Shown here in pieces: positions 2,973 through 23,538 of a stretch of 64,000 nt of DNA. Each line of letters starts with the position of its first letter. Position 1 is the stretch's first letter. Location: the NCBI GenBank assembly GCA_010671905.1, contig JAAHII010000001.1, positions 1,922,001-1,986,000 on the forward strand, in the 5' to 3' direction. Made by a program: the position numbers and the translations under genes. Under the pieces are notes generated by a model. That model was given only the letters and a program-made list of their open reading frames with translations. It made no database searches and had not been told where the DNA came from. The DNA comes from Leptolyngbya sp. SIOISBB (GTDB lineage Bacteria > Cyanobacteriota > Cyanobacteriia > Phormidesmidales > Phormidesmidaceae).

Positions 2973-2975
2973 GCG

Positions 2976-5900
2976 ATGCCCCACCCCCAGACTGCATCGA
3001 CGGATAAGGATCAACTCTCATCTGCCAAACGGTTGTTGCTGGCCGTTAAAGATGCCCGCTCTAAATTAGAGGCCGTGGAACGCGCTAAGCGTGAACCGAT
3101 CGCCATTGTGGGTATGGGCTGTCGCTTGCCTGGTGGCGTTAAGACGCCCCAGGAGTACTGGGACTTACTCGCCAATCAAAGCGATGCCATTACTGAGGTA
3201 CCGGGCGATCGCTGGAATATCGATGCCTATTACGACCCTGATCCTGAAGTGCCGGACAAAATGTCTACCCGCTACGGCGGGTTTATGGACTCTGTCGACA
3301 CTTTTGATGCGGCGTTCTTTGGGATTTCGCCACGGGAAGCCCTCAGTATGGATCCGCAGCAGCGGCTGCTGCTAGAGGTCGCTTGGGAGGCGTTAGAAAA
3401 TGCAGCCTGTATTCCGGAAACCCTGAGAGGGAGCCGAACGGGGGTGTTTACCGGTGTCACCATTAATGACTATGGCTCTCGCCTGGTGCAATCTGGCAAG
3501 GTAGACAGCTACTTTAGCTCGGGCAACGCCCTGAATGCAGTTGCCGGTCGAGTGGCCTACACCCTGGGATTACAAGGGCCTTGTATGACGGTGGATACAG
3601 CCTGCTCGTCATCGTTGGTCTCGATTCATCTGGCTTGTCAAAGTCTGCGCCATGGCGAGTGTGATGCCGCTCTAGCCGGGGGCGTCAACATTATCCTGTC
3701 GCCGGAGCCGACGGTGGCGTTGTCCAAGGCGAGAATGATGTCTCCCGACGGGCGCTGTAAGACTTTCGATGCCAATGCGGATGGCTTTGTCAGGGGGGAA
3801 GGGTGTGGCGTCCTAGTGCTGAAGCGATTGTCTGATGCGATCGCCGCTGGCGATCCCATTCGGGCGCTGATTCGTGGCTCCGCCGTTAACCAAGACGGTC
3901 CCAGCAGTGGGTTCACAGTGCCCAATCGAGCCGCCCAAGAGGCGTTGATTCAGCAGGCCCTGACCGCCGCCAAGCTCGCTCCTGCCGCCGTTGACTATGT
4001 TGAAGCCCATGGCACCGGGACCTCCCTGGGCGACCCAATTGAGGTTAAGGCGCTGGCCGCCGCACTCGGAGCAGAGCGTTCGCAGGAGCATCCAATCCTC
4101 ATCGGTTCCGTCAAGACCAATATTGGTCACTTGGAATCAGCAGCGGGCGTCGCCGGCATCATGAAAGTTGTGCTTGCTTTAGAGCACGAGCAAATTCCCG
4201 CCCACCTGCATCTGCAAGAGCCTAACCCCTATATTCCCTGGACGGATTTGCCGGTTCAGGTCACCACCCAGCCGAACCCGTGGCCCCGTCATGACCAGCC
4301 CCGCATTGCGGGTGTTAGCTCCTTTGGCGCTAGCGGCACCAACGCCCATGTGCTGCTTGAAGAAGCACCGCTACCGCCGCCGCTTGAGGGTACGCAAGCG
4401 CACCCCACTGACCTCATGACGCTCTCTGCTAAAACGCCTGCTGCCCTACAGTCCCAAGCAGAGCAGTATCGGCAGTACCTGGTGACCATTGACCCTTCCC
4501 AGTTCCCAGCCGTGTGTCGTACGACCCAGACTGGCCGCAGTCATTTTAGTCATCGTTTAGCGGTGTCGGCGACGTCGGTGTCAGAGGCTCAAGCCCGCTT
4601 AACGGCATTTCTTCAGGATGAAGAAAGTCAGGAGGTTCAGGTCACTCAGACGGGGAGTGGGTCGAAAAAGGTGGCCTTCCTGTTCACCGGTCAGGGCTCT
4701 CAGTACTCCGGGATGGGCGAACAGCTATATCAAACTCAGCCAGTCTTTCGAGACGCTCTCAATACTTGTCAGACCATTCTCCAGCCACTGCTCAACGCTT
4801 CGCTGTTGGACATCTTGTTTGACCCGGCTCAGGCCGCAACGCTCAATCAAACTGCCTATACTCAGCCAGCGCTCTTTGCCTTGGAATACTCGCTCGCTCA
4901 ACTTTGGCAAGCGTGGGGCATACGGCCAGCGGTGGTGATGGGGCATAGCGTGGGTGAATATGTCGCGGCGTGTATCGCCGATGTCTTCAGCTTAGAAGAG
5001 GGTCTGCAGTTGATTGCGGCTCGGGGGCGGCTGATGCAGGCGTTGCCATCCGGCGGCGCAATGGTCTCGATCTTGGCTACTGAGGAAACCGTGCAGACGT
5101 ATATCGCGCCCTGGGCTGAGCAGGTTGCGATCGCCGCCATTAATGGCCCCACCAGTATTGTCATCTCTGGTGTCAGGGCAGCCATCCAGGAGATCACGGC
5201 CAAGTTAGCGCAAGCTGATATCAAGTTCAAGCCGCTAACGGTGTCCCACGCCTTCCATTCTCCTTTGATGGAGCCGATGCTGGCAGCGTTTCGCCAGGTC
5301 GCCCAAAACATTGACTATCGGGCACCGCGCATGAAGCTGATTGCCAACGTCACTGGGCAGTTAGCAACTGACGAGGTGACAACTGCTGACTACTGGTGTC
5401 AACACGTTCGCCAGCCGGTCAGGTTTGCGGCGGGCATGCAGACCCTGCATCAGCTGGGGCCATACATGTTCTTAGAAGTTGGCCCTAAGCCGATTCTGCT
5501 CGGAATGGGCCGACAGTGTGTGACCGATACCGCTGATCAGCTCTGGATACCGAGTCTGCGACCGCCCCAAGGCGAGTGTCAAACCCTGCTGACGGCCCTA
5601 GGACAACTTTATTGTCAGGGGGCCGACATCAACTGGGCCACATTTGCCCGCGAGCTGCCTGCTCAACCGATAACGCTGCCGACCTATCCATTCCAGCGAC
5701 AGCGCTACTGGGTGTCAGCCGACACGGGGGCATCCTCCAGCCAGCGGTCTCTTCACAGTGCAGGGCCATCAATCCATCCGCTGTTAGGCGCTCGGCTTCG
5801 TCTCGCGGGGGCGACTGAGCAACGGTTTGAGAGCGAGGTCGGCCCGACGGCACAGAGTTATCTCATCGACCATCAGATTTATCAGCAGATTATCGTTCCG

Positions 5901-8900
5901 GCGACCGCATACGTCGAGTTAGGACTGGCAGCCGCCCAATCGGCACAGTTGGCGTGGCCGCTGCAGTTGAGTGATCTATCCATCCAGCAGCCGCTGATGT
6001 TATCGACGGCAGCCGAGACCAAACTGGTGCAGGTAGTGCTGCGCCCTGGTGAGGGGACGCCTGACTCGGCCACACCTGGCGCGTTTAGTGTTGAGGTGTT
6101 CAGTCAGGACGATCCGGACGCATCCAACGGGCAACCAACCTGGACTCGCCATGCCCTGGGCACGGTGGCCGCTGCCGCTGAGCCGGACTCTCCAGCTACG
6201 AGAGTGGACATCCCGCAATTGCTCGCTCAATACCCCGACGCGATCGCTGTCCCTGAGTACTATCAAGCGATGCAGGCTCGGGGGATGGAATATGGTCCGG
6301 GCTTTCAGGGCATTCGATCACTCTGGCGAGGCGAGTCGGGCAGTCTCGGACAAATTCGATTACCTGAGGGGGTTGCCGCCTCTGGCTATTGCATGCATCC
6401 GGCTCTACTCGATGCTTGTTTTCAAATCCTGGGTGTGGTGCTTGAGCAGGAGGAAGATAGCTTTGCCGATGCGTTCTTGCCAGTCGCGATCGAGTCGCTT
6501 GTGCTCTATCGTCCTCTGCCTGCTCAGGTCTGGAGTCAAGTGGCGGTCGCAGCGGCACCGAATCAGCAGCAGTTATCGGCAACCATTACGCTGCTCGAAG
6601 ACTCTGGAGCGGTGATCGCACAGTTGCAGGGGCTCATTCTCAAGCGGGTGCCGCAGCAGGTTTTCCAAGGACTCCTCCAACCCAATCTTGAAGACTGGTT
6701 GTACCGATTGGACTGGCAGCCGCTAGCACTGCCCACCACAACGGTTGAGCCGAGCCAGGGACGGTGGTTAATCTTTTGCGATCGCACCGGCATGGGCGAG
6801 GCACTAGCGCAGCAGCTAGAGGCCGCTGGAGTCAGTTGTATACGAGCGACGGTGGGGGCAGATTATCGCCGACTCAGTGAGCATCACGTCGAGATTGATC
6901 CGTTACAGGCCGATCACTTCCGCCAGCTGGTTGAAATCTGCCAAGACACGGATCAACCTTGGGCGGGGATTGCCCATTGTTGGGGGCTGCCGACCCCAGC
7001 GACAGTCGCCCAGACTGCGACCCCTGACTCCGTCATGGCGCTGGAGCCGATCAACCAACTGCAGGCAGAGGCCTGCGGCAGTGTGCTGCATTTAATCCAA
7101 GCGCTCACCGCCGCTAGCCTATCGGCACCGCCGCGACTGTGGTTGATGACTCGCGGTACCCAGTCCGTTGCTGATGGGGACCTCACTCAACCCCAGTCGG
7201 GTTCACTGTGGGGGATGAGCCGGGTGATCGCCTTTGAGCACCCCGAACTCAGGTGTACCTGTGTGGATCTCGATGCTGCCACAGCGCCGTCAAATCTTGA
7301 TTTTCTGACGTCCGCAATCTTCCACCCCGATGTCCAAGAGAATCAGCTGGCTTACCGACAGGGACAGCGATTCGGGGCGCGACTGGTGCGCTATCGGGCG
7401 CCAGCGCTCAGCCGCCGTGAAGATCGGGTCGAGATTCCCGCTGAACCCTATCAGGTGCGGCTCCGTGAATATGGCCTGCTGGAAAGTCTCCATTGTCTTC
7501 CCATCCCTCGACGGTCTCCCGGCCCGGACGAAGTGGAAATTCAGGTGCGGGCCGTCGGCCTTAACTTTCGGGACGTGCTCAATGCTCTAGGTATGCTGCG
7601 GGAGTATACCGCCGCCATGGGCGTCACTGAGGCGAGCGAGTTGCCCTTTGGAGGAGAGTGTTCAGGGGTGGTCACAGCAGTGGGTGCCAATGTCGGCCAT
7701 ATCGCTGCCGGCGATGCCGTCATGGCTGCGCAGACGATTGGTAGCCTCAGTTCGCACGCGATCGTTCCGGGGGCTTTTGTGGTGAAGAAGCCTGAGACGC
7801 TCAGCTACGACGAGGCGGCGACAGTGCCAACTGCTTTTCTGACCGCCTATTATGGGCTCCACTATCGGGCGCAGTTGCGGGCTGGCGAACGCGTGCTCAT
7901 TCACTCGGCGGCGGGAGGCGTTGGCCAGGCTGCTGTCCGGGTCGCTCAGTGGTTAGGCGCGACAGTTTTGGGCACTGCCAGCCAGGGCAAATGGCAGCGG
8001 TTGCAGGACGCTGGCGTTGAGCACGTTTTCAACTCTCGGACCACGGATTTTGCCGATGAACTTGCGGTCCAGACAGATCATCAGGGCGTGGCCGTGGCCC
8101 TGAATAGCCTCAACGGTGACTTCATCTCTAAGACCCTTGATTGTTTGCAACCGGATGGACGCTTTGTGGAAATTGGCAAGCTGGGCATCTGGGACGCTGA
8201 TCAGATGGCCGAGTATCGTCCGGATGTCGATTATCATCCCTTTGACTTGCTAGACATTTCCCTCGCAACGCCAGCGCTAATTGGCACTCTGTTGCAGGAG
8301 CTCATGGACCTCTTTAGCCAAGGCGACCTAGAGCCTATTCCGTTTACCCGCTTCGCCGCTGAAGATATGGTCGATGCCTTCCGCTACATGGCTCAGGCCA
8401 AGCATGTCGGTAAGGTCGTGATCTCGATGGGGACTCAACCGGTCACCGCTGCCGACACCGCTGGTGATGCGACCTCAGTCCTCCCGGATATCCAAGCCGA
8501 TGCGACCTACTTAATTACGGGCGGCTTGGGCGCACTGGGGCTCACTGTTGCTGAGTGGTTGGTGCAGCAGGGGGCGACGCAGCTGGTTTTGACCGGACGG
8601 CGATCGCCCAAGCCCACCGCCCAAGCCGCGCTCGCCCAATTAGAGGCGCAAGGCGCTCAGATCTCTGTGCAAGCAACCGATATGGGTCAGGCCGCTTCGG
8701 TATCGACTCTAATGCAGCACATTGCCACCTTACAGCTACCCCTCAAGGGCGTCTTCCATGCAGCGGGCGTGCTGGATGACGGCATGATGATCGGACAAAC
8801 CTGGGACCGGTTTGAACAGGTGATGGCACCGAAGGTAACCGGCACCTGGCTGCTCCATCAGCACACTGAGCAGTTGCCACTGGACTATTTTGTCTGCTTT

Positions 8901-9707
8901 TCCTCGGTGGCGGCACTGACAGGCTCGCCAGGCCAGGCGAACTATGCCGCAGCCAACGCCTTTATGGATACCCTGGCGACCTACCGTCGCCAGCGGGGAC
9001 TGGCAGGACTCTCCATTAACTGGGGACCGTGGTCCCAAAGTGGCATGGCTGCGGCGCTCAAGAGCCGTGATCAGGCGCGCTGGGCCGCCCAGGGGGTGAG
9101 CCTGATTGAACCGGAGCAGGGATTAACGTTGCTGGGGCAGCTGATGGCCTCATCGCCTAGCGCCCAGGTCGCGGTATTGCCCGTCGATTGGTCTCGCTAT
9201 TTAGCTCAACTGCCGCCGGGCCTGAACTTTGGCATGTTATCCACCCTGAGCGAGTCCACCGGGGGAGAGGCCCAGCCCCCATGGTTACGTATTGAGCTAG
9301 AAAAAGCACCGGCTGAAGAGCGTCACCACTTGCTCACCGAGCAGCTGCAGCAGATTATCGCCAAGGTTCTGGGGCTCGACGATTCAGACCTCGTGCAACC
9401 TCGCGAGCGGCTGTTTGACTTGGGCCTCGATTCGCTGATGGCAGTCGAACTTAAGGGCCGCCTGGAATCAGGGTTAGGCTGCGCCCTCCGCTCCACCCTG
9501 ATGTTTGACTATCCGACGCTTGAAGCCCTGGTGGATTATCTGACCACTGAGGTGCTGTTCCCAGAAGCTACAGCGGTCGCCCCAACCGTTCCCCAGCCAG
9601 AGGCTGCTCAAGACGCGATCGAGAATCTGGAAGCGTTATCGGAAGACGAGGCCGAAGCGTTACTACTGGCCGAACTCGATAAAGTGACCGGCTCTATGAC
9701 GAATTGA
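2976..9707 (+). CDS. Modular type I PKS, fully reducing module (KS-AT-DH-ER-KR-ACP)
   Basis: 2243 residues. A helical N-terminal docking segment (about 10-40) precedes the KS, whose DTACSSS Cys is residue 210; HGTGT and a GH-containing motif are intact. The AT has GHSVG (Ser 658) and HAFH, a malonyl signature. The DH has His 966 in [10 protein letters not shown], a variant of HxxxGxxxxP with Gln for Gly, and a downstream D-x-x-x-Q motif in LLDACFQ, so it may still work. The ER has an NADPH motif AAGGVGQAA near 1644. The KR has TGGLGALG near 1848 and LDD, a B-type signature. The ACP Ser is about residue 2153 in GLDSL. The C-terminus is a Leu/Glu-rich docking tail. Predicted action: one malonyl extension reduced to a methylene. 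Confidence 0.95.
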
Positions 9708-9713
9708 TCTTGT

Positions 9714-12700
9714 ATGAATACGCCTATGAACTCGCCCAACGACTTATCGCCAACGAAGCGCGCCCTGTTAGCCCTGAAGGAAATGCAGGCTAAATTAGAG
9801 GCCGTGGAGCGCGCCAAGCATGAGCCGATCGCCATCATCGGGATGGGATGTCGGTTGCCCGGTGGCGTTGTCGATCCAGAGACTTATTGGGACTTATTGG
9901 CAAACGAGATCGATGCGGTGACTGAGGTACCGAGCGATCGCTGGGATGTTGATGCCTACTACGATCCTGATCCAGATGCACCGGGTAAAATCTATAGCCG
10001 CTATGGCAGCTTCATCGACAATATCGATCAATTTGACCCAGCGTTTTTCAGCATTTCTCCCCGTGAAGCATCAACGATGGATCCGCAGCAACGCCTGTTG
10101 TTGGAAGTCTCCTGGGAGGCGCTGGAACAGGCGAACCAAGTACCTGAACAGTTGTTCAACAGCCCCACAGGGGTATTTGTTGGCATCTGTACGAGCGACT
10201 ACACCAAGGTGGCGTTAGAAGCTGACGAGGCGGAAACGATTGATGCCTACTTTGCCACCGGCAACACCCACAGCGTCGCGTCGGGGCGGCTGTCTTACAC
10301 CTTTGGCTTTACCGGACCAAGTGTGGCAGTTGATACGGCCTGTTCCTCCTCGCTGGTAGCAGTGCATCTGGCTTGCCAGAGTCTACGTCAGGGCGAATGC
10401 CATCTCGCCCTCGCTGCGGGGGTGAACTTGCTGCTATCGCCCCAAACCACGCTGACCTTCTCAAAAGCGAAAATGATGGCCCCTGATGGTCGCTGCAAAA
10501 CCTTTGATGCGGCGGCCAATGGCTATGTTCGAGGCGAGGGATGCGGTGTTGTGGTGCTCAAACGCCTGCGGGATGCCCAGGCCGATGGCGATCAGATTCT
10601 GGCGGTGATTCGCGGCACAGCGGTCAATCAAGATGGTCCCAGTGGTGGCTTGACGGTCCCCAATGGTCCATCTCAAGAGAAGGTGTTGCGTCAAGCCCTC
10701 AAAGACGGTGCGGTGCATCCAGCCGACGTCAGTTACATTGAAGCCCATGGCACGGGAACGTCGCTGGGCGACCCGATCGAGGTAGAAGCCCTAGGGGCCG
10801 TCTTTGGTCGCGATCGCCCCCCTGAGACCCCCCTTCACATTGGTTCAGTGAAGACCAACATCGGCCATTTAGAGGGGGCCGCCGGGGTCGCTGGCATGAT
10901 CAAGGTGATCTTGTCGCTGAACCACGAGCTGATTCCGCCCCATCTCCATTTTCGCGAGCCCAATCCCTATATCAACTGGGCTCAGTTACCCATTCAGATC
11001 ACCCAGGCGGCCCTGCCTTGGCGGCGGAGTGAAAAACCGCGGTTAGCTGGGGTCAGCTCTTTTGGCTTTAGCGGCACTAATGCCCACGTTGTCCTTGAAG
11101 AAGCGCCAGCGGTTGCCGTTAGCCAGGAACCCAAGGTATCGCCTGAGCGATCGCACCACCTGCTTACCCTGTCAGCAAAATCGGCTGCCGCCCTCGAACA
11201 GCAGGCCCAGCATTACCAAGCCTATCTATCGGGGAAAGCGATTCCTCCGTTTGCCGCGATTTGCCACGCGACCCAGACTCAGCGGTCAACCTTTGATCAT
11301 CGCCTGAGCCTAGTGACCGCTTCAGCGTCAGAGGCCGCTGAGCAGCTGGCGACATTCGTCACCCACCCTGACGAATCACGAGTGTCTATCGCTCGCACGT
11401 CAGGCACCACGGCACCCGCGATCGCTTTCCTGTTCACGGGGCAGGGGTCACAATATGCCGGTATGGGGCGTGAACTATATGAGACGCAGCCAGTCTTCCG
11501 GTCGACGCTAGAGACCTGTGCAACACTTCTGGAGCCCGTGCTCGGTGGCTCGCTGATCGATTTGCTCTACGGTGATAGTGCCGATGATGCGACCCTCAGC
11601 CAAACCGCCTATACTCAGCCAGCACTCTTTGCGGTGGAATATGCCTTGGCACAGCTCTGGCAATCCTGGGGCGTGCGGCCAACGGTCTTGATGGGCCACA
11701 GCGTTGGGGAATATGTAGCGGCCTGTCTGGCCGGGGTTTTCAGTCTGGCAGATGGCTTAAGGCTGATCGCCGCGCGGGGTCGCTTGATTCAGGCGCTCCC
11801 CGCTGGGGGCGGCATGGTATCCGTGCTGGCCTCTCCCGCCCAGGTGCGCGACTTGATCAAGCCGGATTCTAGGGTGAACCTAGCTGCCATCAACGGCCCC
11901 ACGAGCGTCGTTGTTTCCGGACCGCAGTCTGAACTGGACGGTCTCACCGAGACCTTGACAGCGGCTGGGTTCAAGACAAAGCCCTTGGCGGTCTCCCACG
12001 CCTTCCACTCAGGGTTGATGGAGCCGATGTTGGCCGAATTCCAGCAGGTGGCCAGCACAGTCCAAATGCAGCCGCCGAAGCTGAAGCTGATTTCGAATGT
12101 CACTGGACAGCTGGCTGACAGCGACATTGCCACAGTGGATTACTGGTGTCGCCACATTCGCCAGCCGGTCAAGTTTGCCGCGGGTATGCGATCGCTGCAC
12201 CAGCTCGGATACAGCACCTTTTTAGAAGTGGGTCCGCAGCCCATTCTGCTCGGGATGGGGCGGCAGTGCCTCCCCGCGACAGAAAGCCAGCAATGGTTGC
12301 CTAGTCTGCGACCGCCACTGGCCGAGTGGCAGACCCTCTTGGCCAGTGTAGGGCAACTCCATTTGCAAGGGGCCGCCATTGACTGGGGGGCAGTCGATGG
12401 CGATCATGACTGGCCTCGAGTGACGCTACCCACCTATCCCTTCCAGCGACAGCGCTACTGGGTAGAGCCGCCGATCACTCCCCCCCAAACCGCACCGATC
12501 ATCAGCCACCATTCAGCCGAGTCAGGAGCGCATCCCCTACTTGGCAGTCCTCTGCGATCGGCGCTCAAAGTCCGTCAATTTGAAAAGTTGTTACGGGCCG
12601 ATTCACCTGCGTTTCTCATCGATCACCAGGTGACAGAGTCAATCGTGCTGCCTGGCACCGCCTATTGTGAAATGGCGTTAGCCGCTGGGGCGGCGGTGAA

Positions 12701-15700
12701 TGACGGTACACCGATGACCCTGACATCGGTGTTGATTCAGCAACCGCTGGTGCTGGCGACTGACGTCGGTACGGTGGTGCAGTGTGTGCTCACACCCGAT
12801 GCCGGATCGGCATACCAAGTCGAAATCTTTAGCCTGCCAGAAACGGCATTAACCGCATCCTCTGATCCGCTTGATCAAGTTTGGACACTCCACGCTTCAG
12901 GAAAACTCACGCCCACCAGCAAGGCCGCCGATACGGCCCTTGAATCTCGCCCCGACCGGCCCCCCGATTTCTCTGAAAAAGACACTCTATATCAGCAATT
13001 TCGTCAGCAGGGACTGAACTACGGCCCTGCTTTCCAGGGTATCGAGCAAATCTGGCGCACTGACCAGGAGGTGGTTGGCAAGATTCAGCTGCCTGAGTTT
13101 TTGGGGGCAGATGCTGACCCATACACCTTCCACCCAGCCCTTTTGGATGCCTGCTTCCAAATTTTAGGCGCGGCTGAGGGTGTGACGACCTCGGAGGCAC
13201 TGTATCTGCCAGTCTCTCTCGAAGCCCTGCAGCTTTATCAGCCGGTCAAACCGAGCCTCTGGTGTCGGACTCAGAATTTGCGCCTGGAAGCCAATCATCA
13301 GATGCTCCACACTGATCTGGTGATCTTTGATGACGACGGCGTGGTCATGGCCAAAGTCAGTGGACTTGCCCTACGACGAGTCAACCGCCTGACGCTCATG
13401 CGCAGCCTCCAACCGGACTTGGAGAGCTGGCTCTATCGCCTTGACTGGAAAGCGTTAGACACTCCCATCGTCACTGACACGACGAATCTGGCAGGCAACT
13501 GGCTGATCTTGGCGACCGAGAGTGAATCTGACCAAGCCCTGATCAAGCAGTTCGAAGCCGCCGGCGCAAGCTGTTTACAGGTGTTACGCGGCACCCGCTA
13601 TCGACAGTTGAAGGAGAATCGAGTCGAGCTCAATCCCGTCCAGCCTGCAGAGTTTGACCAGTTAGTGGCGGAGCATCTCAATGGCGATCACGTCTACCGA
13701 GGGATTCTCCACCTGTGGGGGGCGGCGCCGTCTTTGGAGTTAACTGGGGAGCAAGTCGAGCGATCGCAATCGGATCTTTGCGGCAGCGTTTTGCATCTAG
13801 TGCAGGCGCTGCAAAAAGCGGGGACCACTCCGGTGCCGCAGCTCTGGCTGGTCACTCGGGGGGCTCACGCGATCGCGGAAACCGCCGCAACGCAGCCCCA
13901 GACCAGCAGTCTCTGGGGCCTCGGACGCGTGCTCATGGTAGAGCATCCGGACTTCAACTGCCACTGTCTCGATCTCGACCCTGAGCCAACTACGCCAATC
14001 AGCCAGACCCTGTTGGCCGAAATCGTCGCGAGCGATGCTGAAGCCCAAGCCGCCTATCGTCATGGCCAGCGATATGGCGCTAGATTGGTCCGCTATCGCG
14101 CGCCGTCGTTGACCGCATCTCTCACCCTCACCGTGCCCCAGGAACCTTACCAGGTCAGAATTCGCGAGTATGGCATTCTAGAGAACTTGCAACTAGTGCC
14201 GACCGAGCGACAGGCGCCTGAGCCCGATGAAGTTGAGATTGCCGTGCGGGCGGTTGGCCTCAATTTCCGCGATGTCCTCAATGCATTGGGAATGCTGCAA
14301 TCGTTTACCGAGGAGATGGGCGTTACCGATACCGCCGAGGTGCCCTTCGGAGGGGAATGTGCAGGCGTGATTACTGCGGTCGGGGCCAATGTGCCGCACC
14401 TGGCTGTGGGCGATAGTGTCATTGCGGCGCAGGCGCTCGGCAGTCTGGGTAGCCATGTGAGAGTAGCTGCCAACTTTGTGGTCCCGAAGCCAGCTGAGCT
14501 GAGCTACGAAGCGGCCGCGACTATTCCCACCGCCTTTTTAACTGCCTATCATGGCCTGTATCACCAGGCCCAACTCCAAGCGGGCGAGCGGATTTTGATC
14601 CATGCCGCCGCCGGGGGAGTGGGGCAAGCGGCGGTACAAATCTCTCAGTGGCTCGGAGCCGATGTCTGGGGCACCGCCAGTGAGCCCAAGTGGCCTCGAC
14701 TTGAGGCCATGGGCGTCACGCAGATATTCAATTCTCGGACCCTTGACTTTGCCGATCAAATTCCGTCGCTGACTGGTGATCAAGATATTGACGTTGTCCT
14801 CAATAGCCTCAACGGCGACTTCATTCCGAAAACGCTATCGGTTTTGGGAGAAAGCGGTCGGTTTGTCGAAATCGGGAAGCTCGGCATCTGGACACCGGCA
14901 CAAATGGCGGAGACGCGCCCTGACGTCACGTACTTACCTTTTGACCTGCTGAATATTTCGTTGGCAACCCCGGAACGCATCGGTCAGTGGCTGCAGGAAC
15001 TCATGCCTCTGTTTGCCAAAGATCAGCTGTCTCCCCTACCGCACGAAATATTTTCGATTGAGCACCTGGTTGACGCTTTCCGATACATGGCCCAAGCCAA
15101 ACATGTCGGCAAGGTTGTCATCTCAATGTCATCAACCACTCAGGTAGCCAGCGATCGCCCTCAAGACGCCAGCGTCGGGGTTCACATCAATGGCGATAGC
15201 ACCTACTTGGTCACTGGTGGCTTTGGAGCGCTGGGGCAACACGTTGCCAGATGGCTGGCACAGCAAGGCGCTAAATCAATCGTGCTCACCGGACGTCGTG
15301 TACCTGAGCAGGCAACAATTATAGCGGAACTGGCAGCGCTGGAGGTTGCCGTGCACCCGATGGCAGCCGACATCGGCGATGAGCCAGCGGTGGCTGACTT
15401 AATGCGCACCATTGAGACCACCCTGCCACCGCTAAAAGGAATTTTTCACGCAGCGGGGGTTTTGAGCGATGCCATGATCACCGGGCAAACCTGGGCACAG
15501 TTTGAGCCGGTGATGAAACCGAAGGTGACGGGCACCTGGCTGCTGCACGAGCATACCCAACATCAGGCATTAGATTGCTTTGTGTGCTTCTCATCGGTGG
15601 CGTCCGTGGTGGGCTCACCGGGGCAGGCGAACTACGCCGCTGCAAATGCCTTTATGGATGCCCTCGTTGCTTATCGGCAAGGGCAAGGGCTGCCGGGCCT

Positions 15701-16400
15701 ATCGATCAACTGGGGACCATGGTCTCAGAGTGGCATGGCGGCCGCGTTGCAGAGCCGCGACCAGTCCCGCTGGGCTGCTCAGGGAGTGGGCCTGATTAAG
15801 CCACAGCAGGGGACGAGGGTGCTGGGTCAGTTATTGACTGAGACTGACAAGGCCCAAGTGCTCGTCTTGCCAGTTGACTGGTCCCGATATCTAGCGCAAA
15901 TGCCCCCAGGGATGGTGCCCCCCTTACTAGAATCGTTTGCCGCCGACTACTTGGCCACAGGTGACGGGGCCGCCGCTTTCTTGCAGGAGCTGCAGGCCGC
16001 AGCGTTTAGCCAGCGCAAGCCGATGCTACTCGACCATGTGCGCTCAAGCTTAGCCAAAGTTCTGGGTCTGTCGACATCGGAGGGCTTAGACCCTCAGCAG
16101 GGATTGGCTGATTTAGGTATGGACTCACTGATGGCAGTGGAGTTACGCAACCGCCTACAGACGAGCTTAGGGTGTGCAGTGCCACCCACAGCGGTCTTAG
16201 ACCACCCCACCATTGCGGCCCTAGTGGATTACTTAGCAGGGGTTTTAGCGATCGCGGCGGATGCTTCGATGCCAGATCAGGAGTTTCCGGAGGACGAGCA
16301 GTTGGACACAGATGAAGACTCAGAGCCCCCAACAGAGCAGCTCTCGGATAGCGAAGCGGAAGCATTGCTCCTAGAAAAACTTGACAGCATGAGGTATTGA
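9714..16400 (+). CDS. Modular type I PKS, fully reducing module (KS-AT-DH-ER-KR-ACP)
   Basis: 2228 residues with the same layout as the preceding subunit, starting 6 nt after it. The N-terminal docking helix is very similar in both. KS Cys 210 lies in DTACSSS and HGTGT is intact. AT Ser 663 lies in GHSVG, with HAFHS as the malonyl signature. DH His 971 lies in [11 protein letters not shown]. The ER has [10 protein letters not shown] near 1630. The KR has TGGFGALG near 1833 and LSD in place of LDD, still closest to B-type. ACP Ser 2138 lies in GMDSL. The C-terminal tail is acidic and ends in a Leu-rich docking helix. Predicted action: a second fully reduced malonyl extension. No clear Shine-Dalgarno precedes the ATG. 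Confidence 0.95.
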
Positions 16401-16404
16401 GCAG

Positions 16405-19362
16405 ATGAGTCAGAACGTGCAACAAGAGACCCCCGAATCTCCGATCAAGCGTGCGCTGCGGGCTGTCGAAGATATGCAGGCCAAGCTCCAAGCGGTGACC
16501 GCTGCCCAGCGAGAGCCGATCGCCATTATTGGTATGGGGTGTCGGTTTCCCGGCGAGGCCAATTCTCCCGAGACTTTCTGGCAGCTGTTAGAACAGGGAA
16601 TTGACGCCGTTGGTGAAATTCCTGCCGATCGCTGGGATGCCGATGCCTACTACGACCCCGATCCAGACGCGCCGGGAAAAATGTATGCCCGTGAGGCGGG
16701 CTTCCTGTCTCAGGTCGATGGCTTTGATGCCCCCTTTTTCGGTATTTCTGCCCGGGAAGCGACGAGCCTTGATCCCCAGCAACGGCTGCTCTTGGAGGTG
16801 AGTTGGGAGGCTCTGGAGCATGCTAACCAGGCGGCTCGGGCATTCAACAGCACCACTGGCGTCTTTGTCGGCATTTGTAGCAATGACTATAACAAGATGA
16901 TTTGGGAAGCGGGCGGTGGCGCTAGTGTCGATGCCTTTTGCGCGACCGGCAATGCGCTCAGTCTGGCCGCCGGACGCATTTCCTATGCCCTCGGACTGAA
17001 GGGACCCAGTTTATCAGTGGATACCGCCTGTTCCTCTTCCTTGGTCGCGGTGCATCTGGCCTGCCAGCATCTACGCAGCGGTGAATGTGACTTGGCGATC
17101 GCCAGCGGCGTCAATCTTATCTTGGCTCCCGAGACCAGCATTGCCTTCTCGAAAGCGCGGATGCTCGACCCCTCTGGTCGCTGCAAAACCTTCGATGCCA
17201 ACTCCAGCGGTTACGCTCGCGGCGAGGGCGGCGGGGCGGTCGTCCTCAAGCGCCTATCTGATGCTGAACAAGACGGCGATCATATTTTGGCGATCATTCA
17301 AGGCTCCGCAATTAGCCACAACGGGCGCAGTAGCAGTTTGGTGGCCCCCAACGGCTCGTCTCAGCAGGCAGTCATTCGTCAGGCTGTAGACAAGTCAGGC
17401 ATCGACCCGCACCAAGTTGGCTACGTTGAGGTTCAAGGAACGGGAACCGCTGTGGGCCAGTCCTTGGAAGTCGGGGCGCTGACCACTGTCTTCAGAGCTG
17501 ACGCTAATGCCAAAACGCCGCCCCTCTATGTAGGTACGGTCAAAACGAATATGGGTCACTCTGAGGGGGCTTCCGGCATGGCCAGCCTCATGAAAGTCGT
17601 TCTGGCTCTACAACATCAAACGATTCCTCCTCATCTGCACTTTCAAGCGCCGAACCCTTATATCGATTGGGAGACGACGCCGGTTCGTGTCCCAACTGAA
17701 CCCGTCCCCTGGTCGGCGGGGGCTGCCGTGAGAACTGCCGGTATCAATAGTTTCGGTTTCAGCGGCACCAATGCCCATGTCATTTTGACGGAACCGCCTA
17801 CCCCCTCAGCCCCGCCTCCGGCTCAAATGGAGCGTCCCCTGCACTTGATGACGCTCTCGGCCAAGCATCCCACCTCACTGCAACGTCTGGCTGAACAGTT
17901 CCAGGAGTATCTAGAGGCCGATCCTGACGCGGCAATCGCCGATGTATGCTTTTCGGCCAATACTGGACGGTCACATTTCCAGCATCGACTCGCGATCGCC
18001 GCTGCGTCCACTCAGGAACTGAGCCAGCAGTTAGCTGCCTTCACCCAGCAGCAGTCTTCTCCCACCCTCTGGTTGGGCAATGTCAGTCACCCGCCCAAGG
18101 TCGCCATCGCTTTCCCCGGTCAAAGCGTTGCCCCCAATACCGGCCGCAAGCTTTACGAGACTCAGCCGGTCTTCCGTAAAGCGATTAACCGTTGCAGTGA
18201 GCTGCTGTCAGCGCACTTGCCGATGCCCTTAGCCCAAGCGTTATATCCAAATACCACGGCTCGTGCAACCCCAGAGAACGCCCCAGCTGACGCTCTGGGA
18301 CCAGCGCTCTCGTTTGCCCTGGAGTATGCTCTCTATCGACTCTGGCGATCGTGGGGGCTCGAACCCTCTATCCTTGTGGGTAGCGGGACTGGTGAAATCG
18401 TCGCCGCTTGTGCCGCCGGTGTCTTTCCCCTAGAAGCTGCCCTTAAACGAGCGATCGACACTGACTTTATCTTTGACGCGTTGTCGTCACCCAGATATCC
18501 CATCTGGTCTCTCGCAGCCGGACAGTGGATTACTGAACGCGTCGCGCAAGCATCATATTGGCGTAGCCAGCCAGCCCCAGCTGAGCCTCAAAACGCCTCA
18601 GCTGCCCTGGCTCAGCAAGAGATTGCGGCGGTATTGGTCATGGGTCCCCATCCGATCGTGGCTGAATCGCCATCTGACCACCCACTGTGGTTTGCCAGTC
18701 TGCAGGCGAGCGCCCCCTGGCAAACTTTACTGTCAAGCCTGGCGACGCTTTACACCATCGGTGTTGAGGTTGACTGGGTGGGCTTTGACCAGCCTTATGC
18801 CCGGCGATCGCTGCCCTTGCCCACGTATGTCTGGCGACATCAGCGCTATTGGTTTGATGCTAATGGATTTGGGCCACCCCCTCAGACCACTCCAGCCCGC
18901 CCGCTGGTACCGGCAGATACCGACACCACGAGTCTCATTGAAGCGCTCACGGCCACCGGCGACCTCTCGGAAGCTGAGCGAGCACTCTTACCCAAATTAC
19001 TGTCATTGCTGACACAGCGAGCGACTGACGAATCAGCATCGACATCCTCAGTCCCGGCAGCCAGTGCAGACGAGGCCACCACCACCTTCAAGACGTTAAC
19101 GGCAACCGATATCCAATCCTGGCTGGTCAATCGCATTGCCATGGAATTGGGCGTCGGCCCTGAAGAAATCGATCCCCAAGCTGAATTTGATAGCTACGGG
19201 CTCGATTCAGTGCTGGCGATCAGCATTGCCAGTGCCGGCAAACAATATTTAGGGGTCGAAGTCACCCCCCTCATGTTGATTCAGCACGCCACGATTACCA
19301 CCCTATCCAATCATCTGGTCGCTGAGTTTGAGGCCTCTAACACCGAGGTTTTTGAACTGTAA
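16405..19362 (+). CDS. Degenerate PKS module: KS lacking the HGTGT His, dead short AT, and ACP
   Basis: 985 residues. The N-terminal docking helix matches the other subunits, so it should join the assembly line. The KS Cys 209 is kept (DTACSSS) and His 385 is kept, but HGTGT reads QGTGT (CAA at 17434-17436, residue 344), and the usual VNQDG reads ISHNG. The AT elbow GHSVG reads GSGTG (GGG at 18385-18387), so both the His and the nucleophilic Ser are gone. About 100 residues that normally follow, including the HAFH segment, are missing. The ACP is intact (DSYGLDS, Ser about 935). GAGG sits 10 nt before the ATG. Inference: a non-extending module that accepts or parks the finished chain and passes it to the TubC-domain protein encoded next. 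Confidence 0.9.
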   Translation: MSQNVQQETPESPIKRALRAVEDMQAKLQAVTAAQREPIAIIGMGCRFPGEANSPETFWQLLEQGIDAVGEIPADRWDADAYYDPDPDAPGKMYAREAGFLSQVDGFDAPFFGISAREATSLDPQQRLLLEVSWEALEHANQAARAFNSTTGVFVGICSNDYNKMIWEAGGGASVDAFCATGNALSLAAGRISYALGLKGPSLSVDTACSSSLVAVHLACQHLRSGECDLAIASGVNLILAPETSIAFSKARMLDPSGRCKTFDANSSGYARGEGGGAVVLKRLSDAEQDGDHILAIIQGSAISHNGRSSSLVAPNGSSQQAVIRQAVDKSGIDPHQVGYVEVQGTGTAVGQSLEVGALTTVFRADANAKTPPLYVGTVKTNMGHSEGASGMASLMKVVLALQHQTIPPHLHFQAPNPYIDWETTPVRVPTEPVPWSAGAAVRTAGINSFGFSGTNAHVILTEPPTPSAPPPAQMERPLHLMTLSAKHPTSLQRLAEQFQEYLEADPDAAIADVCFSANTGRSHFQHRLAIAAASTQELSQQLAAFTQQQSSPTLWLGNVSHPPKVAIAFPGQSVAPNTGRKLYETQPVFRKAINRCSELLSAHLPMPLAQALYPNTTARATPENAPADALGPALSFALEYALYRLWRSWGLEPSILVGSGTGEIVAACAAGVFPLEAALKRAIDTDFIFDALSSPRYPIWSLAAGQWITERVAQASYWRSQPAPAEPQNASAALAQQEIAAVLVMGPHPIVAESPSDHPLWFASLQASAPWQTLLSSLATLYTIGVEVDWVGFDQPYARRSLPLPTYVWRHQRYWFDANGFGPPPQTTPARPLVPADTDTTSLIEALTATGDLSEAERALLPKLLSLLTQRATDESASTSSVPAASADEATTTFKTLTATDIQSWLVNRIAMELGVGPEEIDPQAEFDSYGLDSVLAISIASAGKQYLGVEVTPLMLIQHATITTLSNHLVAEFEASNTEVFEL

Positions 19363-19406: not shown

Positions 19407-19412
19407 AGGAGG
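19407..19412 (+). promoter_or_regulatory. Strong Shine-Dalgarno of TubC-domain protein
   Basis: A perfect AGGAGG lies 10 nt before the ATG at 19423. It fixes this start and implies efficient, independent translation of the protein encoded after the PKS subunits. Confidence 0.75.
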
Positions 19413-19422
19413 CACTCACACC

Positions 19423-21291
19423 ATGAATGTATCTGGGTTAATTGATCAATTGACTGAACAAGGTGTTCAAGTCTGGGCCGATGACAACGGCAAACTGAAG
19501 ATTCAATCTCCCAAAGGAGTCATGACTAGCGAGCTGCAATCAGAATTAGTGGCTCGTAAGGCAGAAATTCTAGAATTCCTGCTTAATCCCAGTCCCCCCT
19601 CCTCCAACACCTGTGGGAGCGCAAACCACGGTCTCAGCATGCTCACTCTTGGCAGATTGATCGGCGGCTATGGCAGAGGTGAGAGCTTTACGCCTCCGGT
19701 GATTGACCCCACTGTGATGGCACAACAGCTCAAAGTCACTTTTCGCCCACTTCCGGCAAATTACAAGAACGAAACCATCATCAAATTTCGCCAAGACTTA
19801 GAAGATAAATTGACCGCTAGCGGTGTGACGGTCGTGCCCTGGGAAGCCGCCACACAGGAGTCAGAGTATGAAATGACGCTGCCCATTATCAATCGCCAAC
19901 GCACCGTTAAATCAACAGCGGTTAAAGCCGCCATTAACGCCATGATTGATGTCGAGCGGCATCCCTCACTGCTGGGGAAGCTGAAAGTTTGCGTTGCCGA
20001 AAATCTTTACCAGTTTTACTCCCGTTTTTGGCTCAAGGATCGCAAGCTATCGGTATCTAAAATTGCTCAGTTTATTAGTTGGGCTGAAGAGAATATTCAC
20101 GATCTGCAAGACCCTACGAATACTCAGGTCATTGTCTTGACCGAGTTAGACGAAAAATTCATTAATCCTGAATTGAGCTATCAGAAAAAGATCCCCATTG
20201 GCGTTAATACGCTAGTGAGAACGTTCTCAGAAATTGTCGTGGGAGTTTCGGAATCACGCCTATCCATTCTCAATATGAATCTTTCTGATTCGGTGTTTCC
20301 GACAGCCTTGGCTGATGGCTTTGTGGCCCAATCGCTCATTCCTAAGATCTTTGTCCCGATCATGCCGCTATCGCTGTCGCGGTTCGAAATCGGCACCTAC
20401 AATCCTGAAAAATCTGACTACGCAGCACAGCTCGTCAAATTCGGTAATGCACTAGCGTCAACGGGGCTACTACCCGACGGGTTCAAAATTGATGATGTGG
20501 TAAAGCGGCAATCGCACCGCGATATTGTTGATTGGATGGCGAAAGGTCGCACGGGGGTCTCTTACGGATTTGTCGCCTATGCTGAGCCCCCTCAATATGT
20601 GGGTGATTTGGAAGTCTCTGAATCAACTTGGACGACCCTCAAATCAGTGGCTGGTTTTGATGCTGATGAACTCCGTCAAAATTCTGCAGGCCGTTGGTAT
20701 TTACGGCTGCGATCGCTGACTGGTTGGAAATATCAGCAAGTTCCCGATATCTGGCTGGTCAGTTCCCGTTCCGGCTCTAACAAAACTAAGTTACATCTAG
20801 CCACAGACATTGTCAGACTCGGGCTCACCGGTAACCTCCAACTACAACTACCCGAGGGGGTCGATCCCAATGTGACCGATGTCAAACCTTCCTACGACCT
20901 TTACGTCATGGTATCGCTGGCTTTAGGGGCTGCTTTGTTTGCCCCCAAGCTGATTGAAAAGGGCATGCCCATGGTGCATTTCCACGGTTATCCCGCCAAA
21001 GAGTGGTTTGCCGCTGACCGCGAATACTGTGCGGGCGTCGAGAATCCCTCTGTGCCCTGTGGCACTTATGAGTCTGGAGCCTTCAACTTTCTCAGCATTC
21101 AGCGTCTGGTTGAGCAACACGGTTCCGACATTCGCTTGGCCAGCTTAGTCGAGCCTGACCACGGCACTAATGTAGTGGCCGATGACATGGACTATCTTCT
21201 GCAACGGCTAGTGCAAGGGGTCGGCCAGAAAAAGATTGAATTGGGAGGTCGACATTATCCATCCCTAAAAGCCATGACTGCCGCCAGTTGA
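19423..21291 (+). CDS. TubC-type docking domain fused to an unrecognised about 560-residue body
   Basis: 622 residues. Residues about 1-50 match the TubC N-terminal docking fold in pattern (LIDQLTEQGVQVWADD, then PKGVMTSEL, then KAEILEFL), which normally sits at the start of NRPS/PKS subunits and binds the tail of the upstream megasynthase. The rest is not a KS, C, A, TE or reductase domain that I can recognise. It has no membrane segment or signal peptide. Possible conserved points are HFHGYPAKEWF (about 525), the Cys pair in REYCAGVENPSVPCGTYESG, and VEPDHGTNVVADDMDYL near the C-terminus. Because it follows a non-extending module with no thioesterase in sight, it is a candidate for chain release, tailoring or an on-line modification. 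That role is inference only. Confidence 0.85.
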   Translation: MNVSGLIDQLTEQGVQVWADDNGKLKIQSPKGVMTSELQSELVARKAEILEFLLNPSPPSSNTCGSANHGLSMLTLGRLIGGYGRGESFTPPVIDPTVMAQQLKVTFRPLPANYKNETIIKFRQDLEDKLTASGVTVVPWEAATQESEYEMTLPIINRQRTVKSTAVKAAINAMIDVERHPSLLGKLKVCVAENLYQFYSRFWLKDRKLSVSKIAQFISWAEENIHDLQDPTNTQVIVLTELDEKFINPELSYQKKIPIGVNTLVRTFSEIVVGVSESRLSILNMNLSDSVFPTALADGFVAQSLIPKIFVPIMPLSLSRFEIGTYNPEKSDYAAQLVKFGNALASTGLLPDGFKIDDVVKRQSHRDIVDWMAKGRTGVSYGFVAYAEPPQYVGDLEVSESTWTTLKSVAGFDADELRQNSAGRWYLRLRSLTGWKYQQVPDIWLVSSRSGSNKTKLHLATDIVRLGLTGNLQLQLPEGVDPNVTDVKPSYDLYVMVSLALGAALFAPKLIEKGMPMVHFHGYPAKEWFAADREYCAGVENPSVPCGTYESGAFNFLSIQRLVEQHGSDIRLASLVEPDHGTNVVADDMDYLLQRLVQGVGQKKIELGGRHYPSLKAMTAAS

Positions 21292-21357
21292 GCTGCATCT
21301 TGAACGACCTTTTTTAGACCCATTGGGGTCAAGATTCCACTGTTGTACGGGTCTCTT

Positions 21358-22224
21358 ATGACTATGCTTGCAGGAAAAGTAGTGTTATTGACGGGAGCAT
21401 CCCGGGGCATTGGTCGGGTAATTGCCCAGAAACTGGCGGAGGAGCAAGCGATCGTAGTTGGGGTTGCTCGTTCCCAGCATGGCCTCGAAGCACTCTGTCA
21501 AACAATCCAAGATGCGGGCGGTAAAGCTACGGGCATTGCTTGGGATTTATCGGACATTCACTTACTGTCAGATTTGATTGCCCAGGTAGAAGCGCAAGTG
21601 GGCGCTGTAGACATTCTGATCAATAATGCTGGCCTCGAGATTTATCGTGCCTTTCAAGATTATTCTGCGGCTGAGCTTCAGGCTGTGCTCAATGTGAATT
21701 TGTTAGCGGCCATGGAACTGGCGCGTTTGGTGTTGCCCGGTATGATTCAGCGGCAGTCCGGACACCTAGTCAATATTGCTTCTAACGCCGCCAAAAAAGG
21801 GCATCCATTTGACAGCGTTTACTCTGCCAGTAAGGCTGGTTTGCTGATGTGGGGCGATGCCGTTAGACAAGAACTACGCCACACTGACGTGGCCATTTCG
21901 ACCCTTTGTCCCGGCTATGTCGAGCAATGCGGCATGTTGGTTGATACCGGTGTCCCGGCACCTCAGTTAGCTGGCACATCAACACCGGAAGCCGTCGCCG
22001 CCGCAGTCATTCACGCAATTCAGTACAACCAAGCCGAGATTGTCATCAACAAGGATGTGGTTTCAGCCCACATAACCAAACTGATGTTCGCGCTGTGCCA
22101 GTTTTCGCCTCGCTTAGGAGATGCTATCTACCGAGCAATTGGCATTCCCCAACTCAATCAAAGGAGAATTGAACATCGGCGGCAATCCCCGCGATCACCT
22201 CAGCCAGAGTTCGTCAAGGATTAA
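21358..22224 (+). CDS. Short-chain dehydrogenase/reductase
   Basis: About 288 residues from the ATG at 21358; an in-frame TTG at 21343 is a weaker alternative. Classical SDR marks are present: the TGASRGIG dinucleotide motif near the N-terminus, NNAG, Ser in NIASNAA, and YSASKAG with the catalytic Tyr and Lys. The C-terminal extension (about 250-288) is basic and probably flexible. SDRs reduce ketones or oxidise alcohols with NAD(P)H. Its position between the TubC-domain gene and the sulfotransferase suggests a tailoring step on the polyketide. The substrate cannot be read from the sequence. Confidence 0.85.
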   Translation: MTMLAGKVVLLTGASRGIGRVIAQKLAEEQAIVVGVARSQHGLEALCQTIQDAGGKATGIAWDLSDIHLLSDLIAQVEAQVGAVDILINNAGLEIYRAFQDYSAAELQAVLNVNLLAAMELARLVLPGMIQRQSGHLVNIASNAAKKGHPFDSVYSASKAGLLMWGDAVRQELRHTDVAISTLCPGYVEQCGMLVDTGVPAPQLAGTSTPEAVAAAVIHAIQYNQAEIVINKDVVSAHITKLMFALCQFSPRLGDAIYRAIGIPQLNQRRIEHRRQSPRSPQPEFVKD

Positions 22225-22394: not shown

Positions 22395-23538
22395 ATGACG
22401 AAAGCCGCCCAAAAATCCCGTGCGAAAAAAGCCCAGCACCAGCTCTCTGGCAGCACATTGAGCAACTGGCTCTCCTTATTGATACGGCATGGTGGTGTCA
22501 ATGTATCCTATCTGCCCAGAGCCATGAGCGTTACAGGAATGGTGTTGGCAAATGCCCCCATTCGCTTCCTAGAAAGCATTCGATATGGCAAAGCCATCGA
22601 GCGCACTCAAATTGACGAAGCTCCCATTTTTATTCTGGGTCATTGGCGCAGTGGTACCACACACCTCCATCGCCTCATGGTGCAGGACGATCGTTGGGGA
22701 TATGTTTCTAGCCTGCAAGCATTTGTGCCCGAGACGTTTTTAACTCTGAACCAAATGCTCGCCTCAAACTTGCGAGATTTTTGGCCTGAAGTCAGACCCA
22801 TGGATAATGTCTCTTACTCGCCAAGCGTTCCAGAAGAAGAAGATTATTCATTGGCATGTGTCTCACCGTTCTCGTTTTATTGTTGCTGGTATTTTCCCCA
22901 ACAAATGGAGACAATTTTCAGCAAGTCAGTCTTGCTAAATGATCTCTCAGAAACTGAAAGAAAACATTGGCAGCGCAGTTATCTTAAAATCCTGAAGAAA
23001 GCAACATTCTTTTCTGAGGGGAAGCAATTAGTGATCAAAAACCCGTCCAACACTGCGCGTATTGCTGAACTATTGAAACTCTTCCCGAATGCCAAATTCA
23101 TTCATATCTATAGAAACCCATACGATGTTTATACATCAACCATGAGGGTTTTTACAAGAAGCTAGTGCCTTTGTATGCTTTTACAGTCTTTTTGATGAGT
23201 CAAGTTTTGAAGGTCACATCTTCAGCTTTTATCGTCAGCTGATGGATACCCTTTTCAGTACGGTTGATTTGATTCCACCAAGCAATTTCGTGGAAGTTCG
23301 TTATGAAGACTTAGAACACTCCGAAATAACCTGCTTGAAGTACATCTATGAGCAGCTTTCTTTGCCAGGATTTGAGAAGATACAAAATAAGTTTCAAGAC
23401 TATATTGTAGAACAAGCTGGATATCAAAAGAACCAATATAGTTTGGATGAGGCCACTAAAGAGCGAGTGTATTTGCAGTGGCAAAATGCTGTTGATCGAT
23501 GGATGGCGCTGCCTAAAATAGATCAGACAGTAGTGTGA
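22395..23538 (+). pseudogene. Sulfotransferase split by two -1 frameshifts
   Basis: The first part (22395-23165) has the PAPS-binding loop in GHWRSGTTHLHRLM and a second PAPS region in KFIHIYRNPYDV, typical of Sulfotransfer_3-type enzymes. It ends early at TAG 23163. The second part continues from about 23179 (an internal ATG at 23242) with FVEVRYEDLEHSE, the usual C-terminal motif. Two single-T additions restore one protein: one in the T run at 23149-23153 (giving VFYKKLVPLYAF) and one in the T run at 23179-23182 (giving FYSLFDESSFEGH). Both lesions lie in T homopolymers, so they could be real mutations or read errors. If intact, the enzyme would add sulfate to a hydroxyl of the product. Confidence 0.85.

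Follow-up and report, generated by a model that had tools for sequence, protein, structure and literature searches.

Gene content of the F1 locus

The window, that is, the whole stretch of 64,000 nucleotides of Leptolyngbya sp. SIOISBB DNA that was analysed, contains an ORF at positions 19423-21291 that stays open for 622 codons on the plus strand, the minus strand being stop-rich there. The encoded protein, here denoted F1, consists of a TubC_N docking domain, a middle region and a domain predicted to adopt the class II aldolase fold (Table 1). An earlier note on this DNA had described a TubC-type docking domain at the N-terminus, a strong Shine-Dalgarno sequence and a preceding non-extending KS-AT-ACP module, and all these features were confirmed, the module having a QGTGT motif in the KS and no GHSxG motif in the AT. 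The placement of F1 as the last protein in the line was correct in part: F1 does end the PKS line, but an SDR oxidoreductase gene begins on the same strand 51 nt later.

Table 1. Features of the F1 locus (coordinates in the window)
Feature	Coordinates	Strand	Basis or remark
Upstream extension modules: KR; DH-ER-KR; DH-ER-KR	6..16400	+	
Terminal non-extending module, KS*-degenerate AT-ACP	16405..19362	+	KS Cys kept, HGTGT changed to QGTGT
Tail EASNTEVFEL at the C-terminus of the terminal module, proposed partner peptide of TubC_N	19330..19359	+	
Shine-Dalgarno AGGAGG of F1	19407..19412	+	10 nt 5' of ATG
F1: TubC_N, middle region and predicted class II aldolase-fold domain, 622 aa	19423..21291	+	
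TubC_N beta-hairpin docking domain, residues 4-53 of F1	19432..19581	+	PF18563
Conserved region, residues ~85-326 of F1	19675..20400	+	Homologue alignment
Predicted class II aldolase-fold domain, residues ~327-622 of F1	20401..21288	+	VIA-align and Foldseek on predicted models
Asp492 of the invariant PSYD, at the place of FucA Glu73	20896..20898	+	49/49; first turn of helix 491-506; motif and secondary-structure match
His519-x-His521, proposed metal ligands	20977..20985	+	49/49; strand 515-524
His580 of EPDHG, proposed third metal ligand	21160..21162	+	49/49
SDR oxidoreductase, proposed ketone reductase	21343..22224	+	adh_short E 4.2e-52; starts 51 nt after F1

A FAAL, a CylC-like gene and two more modules precede the window (L126, G000:C1:1902001-1922000), and with these 20 kb of upstream sequence the line reads FAAL, CylC-like, KR, DH-ER-KR, KR, DH-ER-KR, DH-ER-KR, KS*, F1, SDR. 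Comparison of 13 clusters yielded a common layout of FAAL, in some cases an ACP, CylC-like gene, 1-5 extension modules, KS*, F1 and an SDR or related oxidoreductase, followed by glycosyltransferases, methyltransferases or a sulfotransferase. The FAAL and the CylC-like gene, the latter called from a sub-cut-off AurF match, are present in 13/13 clusters, and a beta-propeller protein that we take, on its SBBP repeats, to be CylK-like occurs in 11/13; no CylK-like ORF was found in 60 kb around the window cluster or in the 20-kb G481 stretch. In the window and in two other loci (G338 and L063), DH-ER-KR is the final extending module; in several clusters it is KR-only, and several Nostoc clusters have a single KR module. 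In none of the 13 clusters compared did the line end in a recognisable thioesterase or reductase domain.

Several other features of the window were observed downstream of the SDR gene. The sulfotransferase gene looks split, with plus-strand ORFs of 256 and 98 aa (22395-23165 and 23242-23538) compared with a single one of 376-377 aa in L001 and L063. A 1043-aa protein encoded on the same strand (24930-28061) combines a hexapeptide-type acyltransferase, a carrier and an FkbH domain (glyceryl-carrier type, TIGR01686 E 4.5e-95) and has no family partner in the other loci compared. On the minus strand (30218-31933), there is a gene for a 571-aa protein without Pfam or NCBIfam matches, relatives of which flank similar clusters in L063 (24099-25535) and L002 (10090-11610). 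An Rfam search gave no match.

Distribution and phylogeny of F1

A search of the genome collection detected relatives of F1 at 19 loci outside the window genome, 18 of them with cyanobacterial titles. F1 was found in 32 of the 386 genomes in a sample of the phylum and in 28 of the 53 genomes of the genus of G229, which includes a Nostoc plasmid record; given these counts, the locus is more than a chance arrangement. Within the window's own family, the F1 body is present in 5/63 genomes, and the remaining matches are docking domains alone. Two full-length matches came from a plasmid search (Gloeothece PCC 7822 and Nostoc UHCC 0926), and a search of viral contigs returned nothing informative. 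Because the search beyond Cyanobacteria used exact peptide words only, we make no claim that F1 is restricted to this phylum. A contig assigned to a Candidatus Gracilibacteria MAG (L019, record JAAUUT010000066.1) bears an F1 gene of cyanobacterial type, and its label is probably a binning error.

From 58 loci, we obtained 55 sequences of at least 500 aa, with the fragments L018, L019 and L125 excluded, and collapsing these at 99% identity left 49 homologues; in L002 and L015, the N-terminal reading frame is broken. The F1 body is strongly conserved, with 51-78% identity among homologues. The maximum-likelihood tree of the 49 homologues splits into two clades with full support, 19 in a KS* context (17 intact modules, 1 broken module, 1 contig edge) and 30 in which F1 follows a stand-alone ACP of ~100 aa beside a PfaD/PUFA-type synthase. 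The expectation in the earlier note that every homologue would be preceded by a KS-AT-ACP whose KS has QGTGT was thus not upheld, as an intact module of this kind precedes 17 of the 49, and a discrete ACP precedes 30.

In the discrete-ACP clade, PfaD is encoded at most five genes upstream in 29/30 loci, KS/CLF-type PUFA-synthase genes are present in 22/30, and a PapA-like acyltransferase is encoded upstream in 24/30. A thioester reductase-like gene (f28) lies upstream in 4/30, with NAD_binding_4 in L014, and one ORF separates the ACP from the F1 gene in L096, L101, L105 and L107. This second, PfaD/PUFA-type cluster (L014, L095-L124) occurs in Nostocales and a few others. The SDR gene is directly downstream of F1 in 17/19 loci of the KS* clade, the exceptions being a contig end and an intervening glycosyltransferase-like gene, but in just 7/30 of the discrete-ACP clade, which weakens a reading of F1 and the SDR as a universal two-enzyme unit. 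Genes for PipX, SepF and YggS-like and ProC-like proteins, located downstream of F1 at 11 discrete-ACP loci, were considered as parts of the system and rejected as housekeeping.

Docking domain and upstream partner

The docking domain is matched by PF18563 over residues 4-53 of F1 (E 6.4e-16, 58.6 bits against a curated cut-off of 26), and the same family is found in 16/18 members of the F1 alignment A1, the two other rows being without the N-terminus. In structure comparison, this domain matches the docking domain of AerJ (8aqq) with Z 9.3 and 1.7 Å over 56 residues. A sequence search of the PDB with F1 gave significant matches to the docking domains of AerJ, TubC, EpoB and Kj12, and a profile built from 18 F1 homologues retrieved docking domains alone at a meaningful E-value.

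The module preceding F1 in the KS* clade has decayed in a consistent manner. The catalytic Cys and the third His (NxGH) of the KS are kept in 17/17 terminal modules, and the His of HGTGT is replaced by Q in 15 and by N in 2. The catalytic His of the AT is absent in 17/17, the Ser is also lost in 14 and kept only in L063, and in L092 and L010 the whole AT is missing. In the extension modules of the compared clusters, HGTGT and GHSVGE are present. With the HGTGT His lost and the AT dead, the terminal KS* probably just hands the chain to its ACP. Across the terminal modules, the loss of the AT can be seen in successive stages, from the Ser being kept (L063) to the AT being absent (L005/L092, L010).

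An acidic tail resembling EASxxEIFEI is common to 48/49 upstream ACPs, with 43 identified by script and 5 by eye, and was not visible in one. As this pattern was defined after the tails had been seen, its weight rests on the controls, which were not de-duplicated: the tail was found in 0/8 ACPs paired with the CylC-like gene and in 0/25 PKS subunits that hand over to another PKS subunit. The presence of the same tail in both clades indicates that the partner of F1 is an ACP with that tail rather than a PKS as such. Judged by these sequences, the N-terminal domain of F1 presumably docks physically on the ACP tail, in line with the recruitment to a carrier that the earlier note had envisaged.

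Predicted fold of the F1 body

Apart from TubC_N, F1 matched no Pfam-A family at E 0.1 and no NCBIfam family at the same threshold, and the best match among PHROGs reached just E 0.075. A thioesterase, condensation, reductase or KS domain hidden in the body was considered and rejected, with neither a family match nor a structure match of this kind, so the description of the ~560-residue body as containing no known synthase, thioesterase or condensation domain was borne out by the Pfam-A, NCBIfam and structure searches.

We compared two AlphaFold models of middling confidence, both built on close homologues, with known structures: model 1 covers the whole of F1 (pLDDT 73.4, pTM 0.70) and model 2 residues 92-622 (pLDDT 70.5, pTM 0.67). 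Residues 327-622 of model 1 aligned with FucA (1e4b) at Z 13.2 and 3.4 Å over 174 residues, and model 2 aligned with RhuA (2uyv) at Z 13.2 and 3.1 Å over 183 residues (VIA-align). The 50 matches listed for model 2 all belong to the class II aldolase superfamily or to relatives of the fold such as adducin (8iah/8iai). Foldseek recovered 1pvt (E 2.8e-6) and 1gt7 (E 3.0e-4) with model 2 and no match at E <= 0.001 with model 1, and in a viral structure library the best row was a class II aldolase (E 4.1e-3). Profile methods did not reproduce this result: Aldolase_II (PF00596) was matched neither by F1 nor by the alignment of its homologues, and hhalign of the F1 family against it, with a low-diversity query and a template containing two wrong-frame rows, was not significant (Prob <= 0.3). 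Together, the models predict that residues ~327-622 of F1 form a domain with the fold of class II (fuculose/rhamnulose-phosphate) aldolases. Thus, of the earlier description of the body as being of unknown family, the lack of a Pfam or NCBIfam match stands, whereas its C-terminal half is predicted to have a familiar fold.

Residues ~85-326, which were modelled within the whole of F1 and within 92-622, gave no confident structure match; the matches of the N-terminal part were too weak (Z 8.2 for lysine decarboxylase 9e0o; E of at least 0.14 for the Dbf4/BRCT rows). As these residues were modelled only inside longer chains, we do not claim that they have no known fold.

Candidate active site

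Across the 49 non-redundant homologues, H519, H521 and H580 are the only His that never vary, and D492, R376, R449 and K454 are invariant as well (49/49). We propose that the three His correspond to the HxH...H metal-ligand pattern of class II aldolases, an assignment made by motif, spacing and secondary structure rather than by superposed coordinates. A manual count puts the second and third His 59 residues apart in F1; in L065, a FucA-like protein of cyanobacterial origin, the distance is 61. F1 would accordingly be a metal-binding protein.

According to two papers (PMC11841055, PMC5216522), Glu73 is the base in FucA, with Asn29, Thr43, Gly44, Ser71 and Ser72 binding phosphate, and POD is an iron oxygenase on the class II aldolase fold in which Fe is held by the same three His and Glu73, Ser71 and Ser72 of FucA are described as missing. 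By motif and secondary structure, the PSSE of FucA corresponds to the invariant PSYD in the F1 family, so that the Ser and an acid are kept, with Asp replacing Glu. This retention leans towards enolisation chemistry, without settling the matter.

Proposed function of F1 and alternatives

Taken together, these observations make it very probable that F1 is an ACP-docked enzyme with an aldolase fold that acts on the terminal chain, and we consider it reasonably likely that it is responsible for both head-group formation and chain release. In the mechanism that we favour, the TubC-type domain would hold on, by its acidic C-terminal tail, to the last ACP, to which the terminal KS* would pass the finished acyl chain without decarboxylation of an extender, the AT being dead. 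The aldolase-fold domain would then work on the acyl thioester at a three-His metal site, where, most likely, a metal-bound enediolate would form from a small hydroxy-carbonyl or sugar-phosphate donor. Attack of the enediolate on the acyl-S-ACP would release the chain by C-C bond formation, and cleavage of the adduct would leave a net gain of one carbon. The product would be a hydroxymethyl ketone, from which the SDR encoded next door could form a 1,2-diol by reduction, and this diol might then be glycosylated or sulfated. The substrate, the donor and the reaction are those that we infer from the evidence above. No member of the class II aldolase superfamily is known to us to add a single net carbon to its substrate, and our trust in this particular C-C bond-forming chemistry falls just short of balance; the explanation as a whole, an ACP-docked, metal-dependent chain-finishing enzyme with the mechanism as proposed, seems to us evenly poised. 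A new kind of release or tailoring enzyme, as the earlier note had suggested, is the best reading here too.

The main rival of this mechanism takes F1 to be a non-haem iron oxygenase like NovR, POD (pyruvic oxime dioxygenase) and TqaM, such that the terminal module extends the chain once and the beta-keto thioester is oxidatively decarboxylated to a hydroxymethyl ketone (+2-1 carbons). Oxygenases on this fold are among the structure matches of F1 (Z ~10-11.5), POD binds Fe through the same three His (PMC11841055 and PMC5216522), and the carbon count would arrive at the same C21 1,2-diol, fitting the idea of a larger PKS product that is cleaved (PMC10849952). This route, however, needs the dead module to extend, although in 17/17 cases Q or N replaces its decarboxylation His and the catalytic pair of the AT is incomplete, the AT is absent altogether in L092 and L010, and the discrete-ACP clade is without any such module. 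Moreover, F1 keeps an acid where POD, as described in PMC11841055, is without the Glu73 of FucA, and we regard an oxygenase as rather unlikely. The classic reaction of the aldolase fold would be a retro-aldol release, in which a beta-hydroxyacyl-ACP is cleaved to an aldehyde that the SDR reduces; the KR-only last modules of several clusters would leave the required beta-hydroxyl, but the window, G338 and L063 end in DH-ER-KR, so that by colinearity there is none. Such a reaction would also shorten the chain, whereas that of nostochloroside exceeds palmitate plus four carbons (PMC10849952). We consider a retro-aldol release improbable.

F1 might also tailor the ACP-bound chain without releasing it, in the manner of an epimerase or dehydratase (compare AraD and MtnB, another member of the class II aldolase superfamily), with release left to the SDR or another gene. 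The superfamily includes epimerases, dehydratases and decarboxylases (1jdi, 2z7b and 6vop among the structure matches of F1), and f28, the thioester reductase-like gene of 4/30 discrete-ACP loci, is in keeping with such a division of labour. Against it, as far as the domains that end the 13 lines are concerned and less so for stand-alone releasing genes, neither a thioesterase nor a reductase was seen there, and on balance this possibility appears unlikely. That the fold can lose catalysis is illustrated by the adducins (8iah/8iai), and F1 could in principle be a dead aldolase fold tethering the SDR or a glycosyltransferase to the last ACP; the invariance of the three ligand His, Asp492 and several Arg/Lys in 49/49 homologues makes this very improbable.

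A possible link to nostochlorosides

Nostochlorosides are made by the ngl cluster of Nostoc punctiforme, which is described as encoding FAAL, CylC, CylK, a glycosyltransferase, PKS domains that include KR, DH and ER, and a KS* inactivated by mutation (PMC10849952). The chain of nostochloroside A is a C21 unit derived from palmitate, in which Cl sits at C12 (palmitate C7), C6 (palmitate C1) bears an OH and the sugar is attached to a vicinal diol; its authors see little precedence for a pathway that adds five carbons, suggest the cleavage of a larger product and leave the odd C21 chain and the diol unexplained (PMC10849952). The window cluster has in common with ngl the FAAL, CylC or a CylC-like gene, KS* and a PKS with KR/DH/ER, and unlike ngl it contains five extension modules, a sulfotransferase and an FkbH-type protein and no CylK-like ORF. 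By analogy, the clusters with F1 resemble the nostochloroside cluster, which suggests a link between F1 and these compounds.

If ngl has a KR followed by a DH-ER-KR module, as in G338, its KS* would hold a 5-hydroxy-C20 chain, and the addition of one carbon at the carboxyl end with reduction of the old carbonyl would give a C21 1,2-diol with OH at C6. The sum of C21H43ClO3 and methylhexose C7H14O6, less H2O, is C28H55ClO8, the reported formula; here, we assume that the diol, which the source text calls 'vicinal', is at C1-C2. We propose, on this analogy, that F1 and the adjacent SDR may supply the odd carbon and the diol of nostochlorosides. In several Nostoc clusters with a single KR module, the products must differ from nostochloroside.

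Assembly lines are known to off-load their products by hydrolysis, cyclisation, reduction, condensation and PLP-dependent decarboxylative condensation, and a release enzyme with an aldolase fold would, if confirmed, add another route. F1 is a named suspect for how palmitate gains five carbons and a vicinal diol, and it may explain odd-length cyanobacterial glycolipids. Two unrelated types of synthase, sharing one carrier tail, are followed by F1, which suggests that it could be a portable diol cap for lipids. Tentatively, and with more doubt than conviction, we put forward a new mode of chain release in which release and head-group building would be one C-C bond-forming step that, together with the SDR, would yield odd-carbon 1,2-diol lipids (nostochlorosides and relatives), with one portable ACP tail serving modular PKS and PUFA/heterocyst-glycolipid-type synthases alike.

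Comparison with known systems

TubC docking and the class II aldolase fold are both already known, and the new part, as far as the literature searched is concerned, is their combination and role in F1. Our search for an F1-like protein found no description within its scope, which excluded subscription papers and preprints.

Like F1, proteins with TubC-type docking domains, including the free-standing AerJ halogenase, carry TubC_N at the N-terminus and are preceded by a carrier whose C-terminus is a short conserved peptide. AerJ, identified as a halogenase by the title of entry 8aqq, provides a precedent for a docking domain on a non-synthase enzyme; in F1, the cargo is neither a halogenase nor an NRPS/PKS domain but a protein predicted to have an aldolase fold. 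POD, NovR and TqaM have the fold and the three-His site that are proposed for F1, and NovR and TqaM serve natural-product pathways, but we know of no docking domain in any of them. POD is described as being without Glu73, Ser71 and Ser72 of FucA (PMC11841055, PMC5216522), whereas the F1 family has the invariant PSYD. With FucA and RhuA of the PF00596 superfamily, F1 shares the predicted fold of residues 327-622, the HxH...H pattern and, at the places assigned to Glu73 and Ser71, an acid and a Ser. It differs from them in having no match to PF00596 or its profile, ~250 extra residues, Asp in place of Glu, a lipid/polyketide cluster setting and, as its N-terminal domain suggests, docking to an ACP.
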